A stretch of 39,146 nt of DNA from the NCBI GenBank assembly GCA_028286915.1, contig JAQBQQ010000045.1, positions 1 through 39,146 of the forward strand, read 5' to 3'. The notes below the pieces were generated by a model. It was not told the origin of the DNA, searched no databases, and was given only the letters and a program-made list of their open reading frames with translations. The position numbers and the translations under genes were made by a program. The stretch's first letter is position 1; each line of letters starts with the position of its first letter. Shown here piece after piece: positions 6,828-39,146 of this stretch. The stretch comes from Candidatus Peribacteria bacterium. GTDB taxonomy: Bacteria > Patescibacteriota > Gracilibacteria > Peribacterales > Peribacteraceae.

Positions 6828-6873
6828 AGTTCTAGGGGGAAGTGGTATGGAATAGTATAGTAGAATGAAAATC

Positions 6874-6949
6874 GTTTGTTGGTTAGTTCGTTGGTTCGTT
6901 TATGGATAAGCTATGAAACAAAAAACGAACAAACGATAAACGATCAAAC
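6874..6949 (-). repeat. Inverted repeat built from phased GTTN tetranucleotides (rpsB-tsf spacer)
   Basis: Positions 6874-6901 contain seven consecutive GTTN tetrads (T, G, A, C, G, C, T in the fourth place). The opposite arm, about 6916-6949, is built of AAAC/GAAC/GATC-like tetrads and can pair with it imperfectly around a loop of about 14 nt. It sits between rpsB and tsf. It could act as a transcription attenuator or mRNA stability hairpin; that is inference. Confidence 0.6.
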
Positions 6950-6953
6950 GGAA

Positions 6954-7673
6954 TTATGCGTCTTCATCTTCATCATCATCCGTCTTCTTATTCTTCTTCT
7001 TTTCATCGGACAGCTCATTTTCGATAGTCTTTAAAATAAGTTCGATGGATTTGACGGCGTCGTCGTTGGCGGGAACAAAGGCGGTAAAGTTATCCGGGTC
7101 GGCATTGCTGTCGCAAATACCGTAGAGAGGGATTTTCAGCTTGGCTGCTTCCAGAACGGCAACGTGATCACGTACGGCGTCTAAGATAAAGACAGCATCC
7201 GGCAGGCCGGTCATTTTGGACACACCGGCAAGGGCAATATCCAGCTTGGCCAGTTTTTTCCGCAACTCCGTCTGCTCTTTCTTGGTATATTTTTCCACTT
7301 CGCCGGTCTGGAACGACTTCTGCAAATCCAGATAGTACTTCAAGCGGCGCTTAATGGTCTGCCAGTTGGTGAGCAGGCCGGGGATCCACTTCTTGGTTAC
7401 CATCGGCTGGCCAAGCGATTCAGCCAGGCTTTCCACCATGGGAATACTTTGCTGCTTGGTGGAGACGAACAGAATGGTTTTGCCTTCGAAGTGAAGTTTC
7501 TTGAGTGCGGCTGTTACTTCCTCCAGTCTGCTGCGGGTTTTCTCCAGATCAAAAATATGGATGCCTTTGCGGACACCGTACAAATAAGGCGCCATTTTAG
7601 GGTTCCACTTTTCTTTGCGGTGACCAAAGTGAACGGCATGTTCCAGAAGTGCTTTTTCGGTTGGGACTGGCAT
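6954..7673 (-). CDS. rpsB: 30S ribosomal protein S2
   Basis: The 239-aa protein is uS2. It begins MPVPTEKALLEHAVHFGHRK, where GHR-x-x-x-WNPKM is the family signature, and continues GIHIFDLEKT, then FVSTKQQS, KKWIPGLLTNW and GICDSNADPDNFTAFVPANDD. It binds the small subunit near S1 and the mRNA exit. The C-terminus is a Lys/Asp/Glu-rich tail (KKKNKKTDDDEDEDA). ATG 7673 is chosen because S2 proteins start just before this motif. The frame stays open upstream to 7772, but that extension would translate the heptad repeats and is not believed. No Shine-Dalgarno is visible. Confidence 0.96.
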   Translation of the reverse strand: MPVPTEKALLEHAVHFGHRKEKWNPKMAPYLYGVRKGIHIFDLEKTRSRLEEVTAALKKLHFEGKTILFVSTKQQSIPMVESLAESLGQPMVTKKWIPGLLTNWQTIKRRLKYYLDLQKSFQTGEVEKYTKKEQTELRKKLAKLDIALAGVSKMTGLPDAVFILDAVRDHVAVLEAAKLKIPLYGICDSNADPDNFTAFVPANDDAVKSIELILKTIENELSDEKKKNKKTDDDEDEDA

Positions 7674-7686
7674 GGGAATAAAAGAA

Positions 7687-7722
7687 GGAATTAGAGGAAT
7701 TAAATGAATGAGAGGATGTATG
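7687..7722 (-). repeat. Degenerate 9-nt tandem repeat in rpsB leader
   Basis: On the + strand four in-phase 9-mers can be read: GGAATTAGA, GGAATTAAA, TGAATGAGA and GGATGTATG. They lie between the rpsB start codon and the heptad-repeat hairpin. Confidence 0.45.
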
Positions 7723-7809
7723 AGTCTTGAATTTTGAGTTTTGAGTCCTGAAATATAATTTTCAAGATTCAAGACTCAGGACTCAAAACTCAGGATTCAT
7801 GATTCAAAT
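7721..7809 (-). repeat. Inverted repeat of phased heptanucleotides upstream of rpsB
   Basis: The left arm (7721-7755) is TGAGTCT, TGAATTT, TGAGTTT, TGAGTCC, TGAAATA, all in a 7-nt register. The right arm (7761-7809) is TTCAAGA twice, CTCAGGA, CTCAAAA, CTCAGGA, TTCATGA, TTCAAAT, also in exact register. The two arms are reverse-complementary versions of one TYYTGAR heptad and can form a long imperfect hairpin. On the minus strand this is the rpsB leader or promoter region. Confidence 0.75.
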
Positions 7810-8028
7810 ATGTCAGAATGACATAGAAGAGAAACCGGTAATCAGAATCCTTGGAACAGACATTCAGCGTCATTTCGCTCTAATTGCGGAGGATATCCCA
7901 TAGATTCATCCTTCGGCGCGCCCTTTTGGGCTTGCTCAGGATGCTCCTCTGGGAGCAGGACCGCAGCGATCAGCTGGATGTGATGTACCCTTTATAGCTT
8001 ATATTGGTGTGTTTAGGCAAATCTTTAT
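7810..8028. other. Non-coding stretch with REP-like hairpins between rpsB and the small-gene cassette
   Basis: No gene is supported between the rpsB start (7673) and ATG 8101. Besides the heptad repeats the stretch holds TGTCAGAATGACA (7811-7823) and a hairpin CATCCT...AGGATG at about 7907-7943. The second encloses TCGGCGC...GCTTGCTC, a longer-looped relative of the TCGACAGGCTC core near 15800 and 16285; an inner GCCC/GGGC stem and GCTCC-TCTG-GGAGC also occur. It probably contains the rpsB promoter, which I could not pin down. Confidence 0.45.
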
Positions 8029-8058
8029 TTGACATAAATTAATAAATTATTTTAATAT
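8029..8058 (+). promoter_or_regulatory. Sigma70-like promoter with perfect -35
   Basis: TTGACA at 8029-8034 is followed 18 nt later by TAATAT (8053-8058), or 17 nt later by TTAATA. A consensus -35 is unusual in this window, where most promoters are extended -10 only. It precedes the 89-aa gene at 8101. Confidence 0.5.
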
Positions 8059-8100
8059 ATAAAAGTTACAGTTCTTTCCTATTAAGGATCGGAGGACACG

Positions 8101-8370
8101 ATGAGGTTTGCTCTGGTTAATCGATGGCATGGTTCAGCTCTGATCCGGAGTCAGGACGCATCCCCTAGCGATATCGTGAAAATGAGGCTCGAGCTGCCTG
8201 AAAAGGTCGGTACAGATCCGTTCGCAGCTTTCGTGCTGACGAATCTGTTTAAAACAATCCGCGACAAGAAGCCTGTGGATGCTTCTGTACTTGATTCCCC
8301 GTTGCTAGATCCGGATCTCCGAGAGGCGATGCACTCCATTCTCAATTCGCCGCCATTTGAAACGCTGTAA
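8101..8370 (+). CDS. Hypothetical protein, 89 aa
   Basis: I do not recognise this protein. It is soluble and slightly acidic, with no signal peptide or membrane segment; the C-terminal third (DASVLDSPLLDPDLREAMHSIL) looks helical. Reality is well supported by context: a perfect GGAGG ribosome binding site (8091-8095) lies 5 nt before ATG 8101, a TTGACA promoter lies upstream and a strong intrinsic terminator follows 8 nt after the stop. Such a textbook expression unit is exceptional among the neighbours, which lack Shine-Dalgarno sites. This suggests either a highly translated small protein or recent transfer. Confidence 0.7.
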   Translation: MRFALVNRWHGSALIRSQDASPSDIVKMRLELPEKVGTDPFAAFVLTNLFKTIRDKKPVDASVLDSPLLDPDLREAMHSILNSPPFETL

Positions 8371-10834: not shown

Positions 10835-10879
10835 TCTCCTGATTCTCCTGTTTCCCCTGTACCTCCTGTATCCCCACGC
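10835..10879 (+). repeat. Degenerate 9-nt tandem repeat upstream of prsW
   Basis: In-phase 9-mers TCTCCTGAT, TCTCCTGTT, TCCCCTGTA, CCTCCTGTA and TCCCCACGC end 26 nt before the prsW extended -10. A CCCAAAGGG / CCCTTGGGG inverted repeat lies about 70 bp further upstream, at about 10752-10772. Confidence 0.6.
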
Positions 10880-13156: not shown

Positions 13157-14863
13157 ATGCTTTCTTCGCACAGCGTCTCCGGTTTGTCGCGCAGGTCTTT
13201 GGTTATGCGGAAGGCCGCGGCCGCGTTCAGTGCGTTCACCATTCTCGTAAGTGCATCGCCGGTTCTGGCATCCGCACGCACGCTTCCGGTTACGGCCGGT
13301 ATTTCGTCCCGCATCATGACGCGCGGGGATTTTATTGCCGCTGCCATAAAAGCCCTTGGTATCCCGGTTTCCAAAACAGCCTATGACGGCGAGCGTGTCG
13401 CGCCTGCTTTATCAGCCTATATAGAGACGGCCAAAGAAAAAGGTGCTCTGGATGTCTTTACCAGAATCAACGCCGCTGCCGCCATTACGCGCGGTGAAGC
13501 ATTGCAGGTGTTGCTTAAGCTGGCTGGTATTGCCACTGCCGCCGGTGCTAAAACCGATTTCTCGGATGTAAAGGATGGAACGCCGGAAGCCTATGCCGTT
13601 ACAGTTGCTATTAAATCCGGTTGGCTGGACCCCATTCGCGCATCTTCGTTTGGTATTAAGTCTCCGGTTACCCGTATTGAATCGGCTCAGTTGTTGGCAA
13701 CGGTTGCCCGGCAGAAGAAAGATGTAAAGGACATGATTAAAATCAACCCGCCCAATGTCCAGGTGCAAACCCGTCCGACTACGTCTTCGGATCTGCCCAA
13801 GAAAGATATTCTGGAGCAGGTGTGGAATATTTTGAACAGTGAATACTATTACCGTGACAAGTTGAGCGGCGATGAAGCCGGTTACAAGGCAGCCGAAGCA
13901 CTGGTACAGAGCGTGGGCGACCCGTATACGGTTTTTATGCGGCCCAGCCAGGCCAGGAATTTTAATGCCACTATTTTTAACGGGCAGATAACCGGTATCG
14001 GCGCGCAGGTGGAGCAGAAAAAGAATGCAGCCGGCGAAATGGTTCTTACCATTGTATCGCCGCTCCCGGGTTCCCCGGCAGAAAAAGCCGGCCTGCAACC
14101 GGACGACGAAATTCTGTCGGCTGATAGCGTATCGCTTGCAGGCATGTCTTTCGATGACGCCGTGGATAAAGTGCGCGGGCCCAAAGGCTCCACCGTCCAT
14201 TTGCATATTCGCCGCAGTGGCAGCGAGCTGGATGTGGCGGTCATGCGCGATGCTATTTCCATTCCCGAAATTTCTGTGACCAGACAGGGAAATGTGGTCA
14301 TAGTAAAGCTCATACAGTTCGGCAAAGCGACCAATGATAATTTCCGCAAAACCATGCTGGAAGTGCAGAAGGCAAACCCTACCGGTATCGTGCTGGACTT
14401 GCGCAATAATCCGGGCGGCCTCTTGACCGCCTCCGAACGTGTCATGAGCGCATTCGTTCCCAAGAATACAGTTTTCACCATTGTCCGCTCGTTCGACGGC
14501 AGCGAGGAAAAAGACGCCACGCTGGATGATCCTATTATCAACAGCAGTATTCCCGTGGCTGTCCTCGTCAATAAAGGCTCCGCCAGCGCATCGGAAATTG
14601 TAGCCGGCGCCATGCAGGACCTAAAGCGCGCCACTATCGTCGGTGAAAAAACATTCGGCAAAGGCTCCGTACAGACAGTTTCCTCTTTTGCTGATGGTTC
14701 CAGCTTAAAAGTCACGCGTGCCAAGTGGTTCACACCCAACGGCCGCGGCATAGATAAAGGAGGCGTAGAAGGCTCCGGCGGTATTATACCGGATACCCTG
14801 GTAACGGATTCCCAGGCCGATAAAGACGCATCGTTGCGCAGAGCTTTGGATTTACTGCGTTAA
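13157..14863 (+). CDS. C-terminal processing protease (S41) with SLH-like N-terminal region
   Basis: The 568-aa secreted protease has a signal peptide (about residues 18-40). SLH-like segments (about 52-185; FSDVKDGTPEAYAV...IKSGWL and a second TRIESAQLL unit) come next, then the S41 N-terminal helical part, a PDZ domain (about 275-365; GSPAEKAGLQPDDEIL) and the S41 catalytic core. The core has DLRNNPGG, SASASE with the likely nucleophile Ser477, and GEKTFGKGSVQ with Lys502 and Gln506. CtpA/Prc-type enzymes trim or degrade envelope proteins. The SLH part should tether it to cell-wall polymer; the RlpA-like protein at 28487 has a related region. A second ATG at 13205 would still leave a complete signal peptide. 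Confidence 0.92.
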   Translation: MLSSHSVSGLSRRSLVMRKAAAAFSAFTILVSASPVLASARTLPVTAGISSRIMTRGDFIAAAIKALGIPVSKTAYDGERVAPALSAYIETAKEKGALDVFTRINAAAAITRGEALQVLLKLAGIATAAGAKTDFSDVKDGTPEAYAVTVAIKSGWLDPIRASSFGIKSPVTRIESAQLLATVARQKKDVKDMIKINPPNVQVQTRPTTSSDLPKKDILEQVWNILNSEYYYRDKLSGDEAGYKAAEALVQSVGDPYTVFMRPSQARNFNATIFNGQITGIGAQVEQKKNAAGEMVLTIVSPLPGSPAEKAGLQPDDEILSADSVSLAGMSFDDAVDKVRGPKGSTVHLHIRRSGSELDVAVMRDAISIPEISVTRQGNVVIVKLIQFGKATNDNFRKTMLEVQKANPTGIVLDLRNNPGGLLTASERVMSAFVPKNTVFTIVRSFDGSEEKDATLDDPIINSSIPVAVLVNKGSASASEIVAGAMQDLKRATIVGEKTFGKGSVQTVSSFADGSSLKVTRAKWFTPNGRGIDKGGVEGSGGIIPDTLVTDSQADKDASLRRALDLLR

Positions 14864-14923: not shown

Positions 14924-15760
14924 ATGAAAAAATTTTTGTATAACCAGGCCATTCCTCTTGCATTTACGTTTCTTATCTTTGGCATTATGTGGGCGTTTCT
15001 GCATGGTGAGATTCTGGTATTGAATCATATTACGCCGATCCCCATTGCCATTCGTATTCTGCCAGCCGACATGCTGGTTGGTTTTGCCATTTATCTCCAG
15101 ACATCCATTGATTTCGCTATTTTCATTGCACACCTCATGCGGACGCACCCGGGCTGGAAAAACCGCATTGCCATAGAGTGCGGCACGGCAGCCGGCAACG
15201 CACTTGGAACCTGTACAGTACTGGCGCTCTGGAGCCTGTTTCGTGATATCGAATGGGTATTGGCGCTCATGATTATTATTGCATCCATCGTATTGCTAAA
15301 GCTGGCGCAGGATGGCCTGGAACATGCGCAGGATGAAGATAAAAAATACCCGGCCTGGTTTAGAGGCATGGTAAAAGGTGCTGATGGTATTCTGGCGCGC
15401 ATAAATAAAATTCTGGCGCCACTCATTTCCTGGATGCCGCATGCGACATTAAATGTGACAAAACAGTACAATTGGATTGGTCTTTTATTTTTTGCCGGTT
15501 CCATCCCATTCATTTTAGGTCTGGATGATTTTGCCGGGTATGTGCCGCTCTTTAATGTCGTTCATATTTACGGCTTTGCACTCGGCATTCTGGCCGGGCA
15601 CCTGGTGCTCAATATTTTCCTGTTCCTTGCACCAAACCTTACCATTAAAACCGTCAAGCAGCCCATTGTCTCCTTTATAGGCAGTATGGCGCTGGTGGCT
15701 TTGGCGCTCTGGGGCATGAAGGAAGTGGTGAAGATAGTGGTGGAGACATATATCTATTAA
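14924..15760 (+). CDS. Polytopic membrane protein, unknown function
   Basis: The 278-aa protein has about seven predicted membrane helices and no motif I can name. A charged cytoplasmic loop (DGLEHAQDEDKKYPAW) splits it into two halves. The second half contains FILGLDDFAGYVPLFNVVHIYGFALGILAGH, with Asp and His residues inside or near helices that might hint at metal or ion handling, though this is speculative. ATG 14924 (MKKFLYNQ) is preferred over GTG 14894. It lies 60 bp after the S41 protease gene on the same strand. Confidence 0.7.
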   Translation: MKKFLYNQAIPLAFTFLIFGIMWAFLHGEILVLNHITPIPIAIRILPADMLVGFAIYLQTSIDFAIFIAHLMRTHPGWKNRIAIECGTAAGNALGTCTVLALWSLFRDIEWVLALMIIIASIVLLKLAQDGLEHAQDEDKKYPAWFRGMVKGADGILARINKILAPLISWMPHATLNVTKQYNWIGLLFFAGSIPFILGLDDFAGYVPLFNVVHIYGFALGILAGHLVLNIFLFLAPNLTIKTVKQPIVSFIGSMALVALALWGMKEVVKIVVETYIY

Positions 15761-38168: not shown

Positions 38169-39146
38169 ATGACCAAAGACTTTAATCCGATACCAGTTGA
38201 ACAGAAATGGCAGAAAAAATGGGAGGAGGCCGGTGTGCATCTCACCAACCTGGCGGAAGCACAAGACCCTTTTTATGCCATGGTCATGTTTCCGTACCCC
38301 AGCGGTGACAAGCTACATGTGGGACACTGGTATAACTTTGCACCGGCGGACAGTTTTGCCCGGTACCAGCGCATGCTTGGGAAAGACGTCTTTGAACCTA
38401 TGGGATTTGATGCGTTTGGCCTGCCCGCTGAAAACTACGCTATTAAAACCGGTATTCACCCGAATGAATCCATCAAAGCCAATGTACTGACCATGATTGA
38501 ACAATTGAAACGCATGGGTTGTATGTATGATTGGGATAAGACACTGAATACGAGCCAGCCGGAATACTATCAATGGACGCAGTGGCTGTTTTTGCAGATG
38601 TTTAAAAACGGACTGTCATACAAGAAGCTGGGTAATGTGAACTGGTGTCCCAAGGACCAGACTGTTTTGGCAAACGAACAAGTGACTGATGGCAAATGTG
38701 AACGTTGCGGAACGGATGTTATCCAAAAGCCGCTGGAGCAGTGGTATTGGAAGATTACCCAGTATGCAGACAGATTGATTGATGGTCTGGCTGATCTCGA
38801 CTGGCCGAACAAAACGAAGATTATGCAGACGAACTGGATTGGACGGAGCGAAGGGGCGGAGATTGAGTTTAATTTGAATATTGCTCGTGGTAGCCGGGGA
38901 ATTAATTCCCCGGCTACCAGATGCGTGCATTTGGTTTTAACGCCTAAAAACCGTAGTGAATTTTTTGAAGATGAAACAGAGGCAAGATCTATTCTGCGCA
39001 TTCTGGATTCTGTTGCCAGAAGACATGATATAGTTATTCATGAAGCTGCTGCTATGAATGGGCATGTTCATCTATTAATAAGCTTTGATCGTTCTCGTGA
39101 TTTAGGAACGGATATTGTAAAAAAACTAAAAGGAGCGAGTGCCAGA
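38169..39146 (+). CDS. leuS: Leucyl-tRNA synthetase with in-frame transposase-like insertion, 3' end beyond window
   Basis: Residues 1-238 are typical LeuRS: YPSGDKLHVGHW with the HVGH (HIGH) site at 50-53, GFDAFGLPAENYAIK, the zinc-type segment CPKDQTVLANEQ...CERC, EQWYWKITQYADRL and TNWIGRSEGAEIEF, which leads into the CP1 editing domain. At about residue 239, where the editing domain should continue, the frame stays open through a 32-bp palindrome. It then codes for an IS200/REP-type transposase domain (HLVLTPKNRSEFF...NGHVHLLISF...KKLKGASAR) to the window edge. No stop occurs in 326 codons. Whether LeuRS sequence resumes cannot be seen. If this is not a chimera, editing must be lost, relocated or interrupted by an intact domain insertion. 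Confidence 0.9.
   Translation, partial: MTKDFNPIPVEQKWQKKWEEAGVHLTNLAEAQDPFYAMVMFPYPSGDKLHVGHWYNFAPADSFARYQRMLGKDVFEPMGFDAFGLPAENYAIKTGIHPNESIKANVLTMIEQLKRMGCMYDWDKTLNTSQPEYYQWTQWLFLQMFKNGLSYKKLGNVNWCPKDQTVLANEQVTDGKCERCGTDVIQKPLEQWYWKITQYADRLIDGLADLDWPNKTKIMQTNWIGRSEGAEIEFNLNIARGSRGINSPATRCVHLVLTPKNRSEFFEDETEARSILRILDSVARRHDIVIHEAAAMNGHVHLLISFDRSRDLGTDIVKKLKGASAR
38888..38919 (+). repeat. Perfect 32-bp palindrome at the left edge of the leuS insertion
   Basis: GGTAGCCGGGGAATT and its exact reverse complement abut at 38903/38904, extended by one T-A pair on the outside. It is translated in frame as part of the leuS frame (about residues 240-251, GSRGINSPAT). REP/IS200 ends are recognised as such hairpins in single-stranded DNA. 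Confidence 0.95.
38888..39146 (+). mobile_element. IS200/REP-associated (Y1, HUH) transposase domain inside leuS, partial
   Basis: After the palindrome the frame encodes CVHLVLTPKNRSEFFEDETE, then AMNGHVHLLISFDRS and GTDIVKKLKGASAR. This order (HLxLxxKNRxxxF, later HVH followed by LLI, then KxLKGxSxR) is that of TnpA/TnpA-REP single-strand transposases; His299 and His301 would be the HUH pair. The catalytic Tyr would lie beyond the window. There is no ATG of its own before the domain core (a GTG at 38925 is possible). The DNA is more AT-rich than the leuS part before it. Confidence 0.8.

Follow-up and report, generated by a model that had tools for sequence, protein, structure and literature searches.

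Cyanobacterial STRR sequences are phased heptameric repeats. SDR elements, said to have been described by Elhai in 2008, are reportedly very small dispersed cyanobacterial repeats that often lie within heptad arrays, and by this description they can be likened to the arrays reported here. According to the available portions of the published accounts, TAACTGA heptads occur near start codons in Beggiatoaceae (MacGregor 2015; PMC4679880) and also in Thiomargarita (PMC4853749), and GGGAATC heptads of Xanthomonas often form inverted pairs, with 70 in Xcc and 75 in Xac (PMC4692102). In those portions the TAACTGA and GGGAATC heptads are seen as simple repeats or regulatory sites, and no link to S23/IVP genes is drawn. 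As in the STRR, TAACTGA and GGGAATC repeats, the heptads considered here are phased, variable and mostly intergenic, and lie near gene ends.

To our knowledge, the protein family PF05635 has no known enzymatic role and is without known function. It is found in 23S rRNA IVSs with an S23p/IVP ORF (PF05635, TIGR02436), which share with the elements described below both the protein family and the placement of the ORF within inverted ends. In contrast to these IVSs, the present elements lie between protein genes, and the copy in the window (the 39,146-nucleotide contig of a Candidatus Peribacteria bacterium analysed here) is outside any rRNA gene; moreover, their ends are phased arrays that vary among elements, and gene-less copies are dispersed. 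The accessible text on IVSs describes tandem GACAGAT heptamers ahead of the S23p start in Coxiella and a long-standing suggestion that the ORF helps the IVS to move (PMC4990558, the latter citing Ralph and McClelland 1993); other partly available sources place IVP ORFs within insertions that CPR bacteria carry in their rRNA (PMC11270868) and liken PF05635 to Avd (PMC10053308). DGR Avd is a related four-helix-bundle protein, but the source genome has no RVT_1 match. Like MITEs and REPINs, the copies considered here are short, inverted, multi-copy and gene-less relatives of a gene-bearing element; unlike them, the gene-bearing form is without a transposase and the ends are unit arrays. The literature searched, covering no preprints and few subscription papers, held no paper tying S23/IVP genes to dispersed phased repeats.

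A hairpin of phased heptads upstream of rpsB

The gene rpsB occupies positions 6954–7673 on the minus strand (Ribosomal_S2, E 2.4e-72; ATG at 7673) and is followed by tsf. The hairpin ends 47 nt from the rpsB start codon, in the intergenic region between rpsB and a small ORF, and there is no ORF within this 88-nt copy. The left arm (7721–7752, 32 nt) comprises approximately 4.6 phased heptads that read TGARTYY on the plus strand and RRAYTCA on the minus strand. An 8-nt loop (7753–7760) separates it from the right arm (7761–7808, 48 nt), in which approximately 6.9 heptads of the RRAYTCA type lie on the plus strand. The register of 7 nt is continuous throughout both arms. As degenerate direct heptads in strict phase between genes, the arms have the features of STRR-type repeats.

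Allowing at most two mismatches, GAYTCARRAYTCARRAYTCA has eight matches in the window, all inside 7721–7806, versus 0.01 expected. The arms score 47.4 and 65.7 bits, whereas the best match in 20 dinucleotide-shuffled windows reached 22.1 bits and none attained 34. Folding of the minus-strand RNA, a step that the sequence-only reading had proposed, yielded a strong fold with a minimum free energy (MFE) of -41.1 kcal/mol (z -6.88), equalled by none of 200 shuffles. That reading had placed phased inverted heptads at 7721–7809, and both the bit scores and the folding z-score bear this out for 7721–7808, with the amendment that the arms are unequal; in the MFE structure, the right-arm heptads that pair with the left arm are mainly the outer ones. 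The centroid structure is nearly unpaired across the heptads, since several pairing registers probably compete in the hairpin RNA.

Other phased arrays are present in the window. Between tsf and rpsB (6871–6950) lies an imperfect inverted pair with an 8-nt phase, GTTGGTTCG / CGAACAAAC, which looks similar by eye to the arms around the contig C9 IVP gene (L323). A lone arm-like array of the TCCCCTGTA type with a 9-nt phase, at 10835–10875, is similar on visual inspection to the arms that enclose IVP gene L321 (C26:34920). At the right end of the window (38169–39145), one frame, ended by the contig, reads as a class I tRNA synthetase with an IS200-like Y1 transposase domain after it; this could represent a fusion, a read-through or a wrong join.

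Distribution of phased arrays

The source genome comprises 1.43 Mb in 48 contigs, and a DNA search with the hairpin repeat returned 61 matches, so that the repeat is not unique to the rpsB site. Among the matches listed, at least 46 arms score 34 bits or more, with a median length of 32 nt, and 8 of the 46 lie mostly within a called gene. Among the same matches, 16 of 17 neighbouring arm pairs no more than 450 nt apart are ordered TGARTYY then RRAYTCA, and at least 13 full hairpins have a gap below 45 nt. The arms are not kept alike by pairing within one copy, since arm likeness in the matches listed is 0.840 within a hairpin versus 0.847 between hairpins, a value reached by 744 of 1000 permutations. 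A reversed-pattern control was left aside because it partly matches the repeat itself.

A periodicity scan covered 394 kb of the source genome and 80–200 kb of each of five relatives. The scanned part of the source genome holds 22 intergenic period-7 arrays. In the relatives, periods of 9, 8 and 6 occur besides 7, with hardly any at 5, 10, 11 or 13; two relatives (G022 and G039) had no arrays in the scanned stretches. The units vary from genome to genome, several may be found in one genome, and many arrays are inverted pairs near gene ends. A rationale in which the repeats supply stops in all frames, with one TGA per 7 nt, was rejected, as stop-less units such as GAAACCGAA in G013 have the same layout. 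Arrays of a TACTACG type were also observed in the source genome (L262 4165–4214, L265 635–664 and L271 1398–1441).

A scan of a genome collection identified 96 stretches with the inverted TGARTYY/RRAYTCA form. Many are cyanobacterial, and among the groups named in the record titles are Bacteroidota, Cyanobacteriota, Acidobacteria, Chloroflexi, Nitrospiraceae, Geobacteraceae, Sedimentisphaerales, Calditrichota and a Thiodiazotropha. The sequence-only reading had regarded inverted arms as unusual for phased 7-nt repeats of the STRR type; these 96 stretches, together with the 70–75 pairs in the accessible text on Xanthomonas GGGAATC (PMC4692102), contradict that view. In 20 stretches the arms are mostly 31–35 nt long and often have an end lying no more than 10 nt from a gene. 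Prevotellaceae MAGs and Oscillatoriaceae Prado104 have a loop sequence common to their copies, in both orientations. Each of five Rufibacter genomes has 71–93 TGARTYY matches and Sabulibacter has 60, a hairpin being counted on both strands.

Arrays far above the usual arm length were seen in R. glacialis (single-orientation TGAGTYY, 113 nt, L319 1166–1278) and in G019 (GAATTAC, 111 nt, L242 15255–15365). In Rufibacter intergenic regions (such as L306, L317 and L318), hairpins of another family, of the CTGTTTTTC-AGAAAACAG type, often lie near or between heptad arms.

IVP genes between phased arms

On contig C40 of the source genome, TGARTYY arms at 14711–14742 and 15122–15160 stand about 380 nt apart with an ORF between them. 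This ORF belongs to PF05635, 23S_rRNA_IVP (E 1.9e-36), and is annotated by NCBI as a four helix bundle protein (TIGR02436); its tail is encoded by the right arm. The bAvd model scores it at 21 bits, under the cut-off of 40. Its nearest solved relative is 2gsc from Xanthomonas campestris, deposited with five chains, which we take to be XCC0516, an S23p. The S23p of 2gsc is described, in the available part of the source, as a toroidal homopentamer (PMC4990558). Across eight diverse IVPs, Q48, R51, S55, E62, A79 and E85 (C40 numbering) are invariant, and this conservation makes them candidates for a functional site.

The complete C40 element carries no transposase, its only gene being the PF05635 member. 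The window copy has arms with the unit of this same-genome IVP gene, and it would be a derivative of the IVP element, not a complete member. As with MITEs, short gene-less copies here have inverted ends in common with a larger gene-bearing element.

All five PF05635 genes of the source genome lie inside inverted phased arms, the unit being different for each: TGARTYY (7 nt), a 9-nt unit, GGGTTG (6 nt), an 8-nt unit and CTAAATT (7 nt). With 53 loci from 18 further genomes (two without a match), the set amounts to 58, of which 56 have 250-nt flanks. In this set, drawn from genomes mostly picked for TGARTYY hairpins or already to hand and not a random sample, an inverted repeat score of at least 16 was found at 51 of 56 IVP loci versus 3 of 168 flank pairs swapped between loci. 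The same score was reached by 0 of 27 rpsB genes (from 30, three close to contig ends being left out) and 1 of 144 size-matched genes. Left and right arms agree in best period at 45 of the 51 loci, and the best left-arm period is mostly 7 (26 loci), 8 (13) or 9 (7). Within the sequences sampled, IVP genes are enclosed by arms in nearly every case, by units of 6–9 nt that differ.

Below 16 are three loci under the Pfam cut-off (L344, L365 and L373) and two with weaker yet phased repeats (L347 and L349). Six genomes gave a single reverse transcriptase match, and the armless PF05635-like gene L344 (G012) lies approximately 700 nt from it, the placement that a DGR Avd would have. A plasmid set from named bacteria (Cyanobacteriota, Azospirillum, Gemmatirosa), comprising 14 of 31 records picked for diversity by the protein alone and with flanks reaching 60 nt into the gene, had 12 of 14 loci at 16 or more, the others scoring 15.0 and 15.8. 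In plasmid operons, IVP elements were seen in the orders cas6 / IVP / cas4 (L406, L411) and cas10 / IVP / Cmr3-like (L408), and L401 lies between ribonucleotide reductase genes; an apparent association of IVP with cas genes may simply reflect insertion.

Median arm lengths in units are 3.75 for 6-nt units (2 loci), 4.7 for 7 nt (29), 5.75 for 8 nt (13) and 5.2 for 9 nt (7). These medians are too noisy to sustain one unit per pentamer subunit, and the idea was rejected as a reading of arm length. Among 55 IVP loci with called neighbours, the gene is sense to both in 35, antisense to both in 9 and mixed in 11; the background gaps comprise 367 co-oriented, 123 divergent and 103 convergent.

Dispersed arrays, orthologous sites and IVP lineages

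In the stretches examined of four genomes, dispersed arrays away from IVP genes were compared with IVP arms. Sixty-one of 82 arrays best match the IVP arms of their own genome as opposed to three rivals, and 21 match another genome's arms equally or better; a score of 14 was reached by 61 arrays with arms of their own genome and by 23 with arms from any of the three rivals. At the level of these matches, dispersed arrays carry the units of their own genome's IVP arms. Among those 21 are arrays of the AATTWTC and TACTACG units, for which the IVP genes searched include no partner.

Two orthologous sites were compared in Rufibacter. The first, bordered by genes that are presumably TldD/PmbA-like, has the arm–IVP–arm arrangement in R. 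glacialis and R. immobilis, with R. ruber aligning across the whole region, and arms without the gene in R. hautae, R. sp. SYSU D00344 and Sabulibacter, where the right arm alone scores. In the alignments, one site can hold either the full element or the arms only; gene loss and gene gain are both compatible with the gene-less Sabulibacter form. The second site, at a gene junction that we take to be CoA-transferase-like, holds an IVP element with one 8-nt unit in R. hautae and with another 8-nt unit in two species. The spacer in R. ruber is about 30 nt with no element, and R. immobilis and Sabulibacter have longer spacers in which arms are not evident. No target-site duplication was evident at this second site, and for the window copy no close relative with an empty orthologous site was found.

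In a tree of 51 IVPs (L323 assigned period 8 by hand; L337, L357 and L363 unlabelled), the 9-nt period clusters, with 3 changes versus a shuffled mean of 6.7 (0 of 500 as low). All four periods together require 15 changes versus 19.8 (1 of 200 as low), a figure to which near copies contribute. The TGARTYY IVPs of the source genome (L320) and of Rufibacter (L335, L336) fall in different clades, and the unit is therefore convergent or exchanged between them.

Proposed origin of the rpsB hairpin

We think it likely that the hairpin next to rpsB is a MITE-like remnant of an IVP element, non-autonomous and consisting of arms only. When complete, such an element would consist of an arm of approximately 4–5 phased units, a PF05635 four-helix-bundle gene and an inverted arm, about 450 nt in all, and would sit in short intergenic gaps. 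The IVP, a homopentamer in the solved relative, would recognise the array of phased units, either in DNA or in the transcript. By such recognition it would enable the ends of the element to be copied or to enter intergenic sites, whether or not the gene goes with them; copies lacking the gene would be mobilised in trans or arise as deletion products, and single arms would reflect later decay. The suggestion that the hairpin belongs to a mobile family was well placed as regards its many genome sites, its occurrence in other phyla and its tie to IVP genes, and the movement itself is what we infer from these.

Neither the source genome nor four of the other five genomes searched has an RVT_1 match, and dependence on a reverse transcriptase was rejected. 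Y1_Tnp matches occur in four of six genomes, with six in the source genome, one of them at the right end of the window; G012 and G013 have many arrays, yet no Y1_Tnp match. Because reverse transcriptase and Y1 transposase are missing from array-holding genomes, the IVP is the one protein found to be common to the elements.

Alternative explanations

In Rufibacter and Sabulibacter, a TGAGTYY hairpin lies between genes that are presumably atpD and atpC (L124, L147, L167, L168). None of its 64 arm sites varies among four species, all without an IVP gene there, versus 52 of 94 and 13 of 38 sites at the fastest codon position in the flanking genes, and its loop varies too. This suggests constraint on the hairpin, which is perhaps a co-opted copy. 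Phased hairpins might be primary, whether selected or born of slippage, with IVP genes a separate parasite of their loops. The invariant arms without IVP speak for this, as do the gene-less form in another genus, Sabulibacter, and the replacement of rRNA stem tetraloops by IVSs described in the available text (PMC4990558). Random entry into loops should, however, favour the commonest unit, whereas five IVPs have five units, and the 9-nt period tracks an IVP lineage across genomes. As a whole we consider this account unlikely, although full elements may have arisen by entry of the gene into an existing hairpin loop instead of hairpins by gene loss.

Heptamers are over-represented in many bacteria, and 7-nt polymerase slippage has been proposed (Mrazek 2007, as cited in the accessible parts of PMC4679880 and PMC4692102). 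Independent slippage repeats, with the inverted order and the IVP link being incidental, are nevertheless very improbable here: units of 6, 7, 8 and 9 nt act alike, the same order recurs in nearly all neighbouring arm pairs among the matches listed (16/17), and the IVP association exceeds all three controls, which contradicts slippage as a full account. Slippage may set arm length.

The sequence-only reading had proposed that the hairpin may be a regulatory or structural element in the S2 leader; its position 47 nt upstream of rpsB and its strong fold would suit a cis-acting role in autoregulation or attenuation. The gene was located in 39 relatives, and 29 foreign loci were compared (L078 starts at a contig end and its leader is missing). 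The TGARTYY repeat is absent at all 29 (23 from the same family and a further 6 from the same class), so that comparison of orthologous leaders revealed no conserved structure; a weak match at L064 (19 bits) is of another unit. A search of Rfam found no family for the hairpin, the sole match in the window being a tRNA, and sister hairpins adjoin genes other than rpsB. A role of the window copy in rpsB expression is not supported, and we regard a leader element as scarcely tenable; co-option for rpsB regulation at this site alone is possible. Several relatives have arrays of different 7-nt units close to rpsB, a first sign that phase and layout, rather than letters, are common across relatives. 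In some genomes of the same class, rpsB contains an in-frame TGA.

We give virtually no credence to a bidirectional terminator or mRNA-end element: some single arms do lie beside stop codons, close to terminator-like hairpins, but among the matches listed none of the 11 full hairpins with both neighbours called is convergent (5 divergent, 6 co-oriented), versus 15 of 103 background gaps, and no terminator-like site was found at 7600–8200 of the window. REP/REPIN elements moved by a RAYT-type Y1 transposase can be set aside with equal assurance, for the Y1_Tnp matches of the source genome would suit them, but the same kind of arrays occur in G012 and G013 without such a match and the arms are unit arrays with no fixed palindrome.

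Implications for the S23/IVP family

The reading of the rpsB hairpin as a remnant of an IVP element extends to a broader one, on which our judgement is evenly divided. S23/IVP proteins would define widespread, transposase-less mobile elements with private unit-array ends of 6–9 nt, maybe with one unit per pentamer subunit; the cyanobacterial, Xanthomonas and Beggiatoa heptads would be their footprints, and rRNA IVSs would be copies that landed in rRNA. On this basis it is predicted that X. campestris XCC0516 lies inside GGGAATC arms.

The arrangement joins two puzzles, the role of the S23/IVP proteins, a common orphan family, and the origin of intergenic 7-nt phased repeats. It offers a candidate function for S23/IVP that can be tested, and it would also predict the repeat family that goes with a given IVP gene in a genome. 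The presence of four-helix-bundle genes in unrelated operons, such as those for cas proteins and ribonucleotide reductase, would be explained, and the arm–IVP–arm arrangement could account for many unexplained short-repeat hairpins of bacteria.
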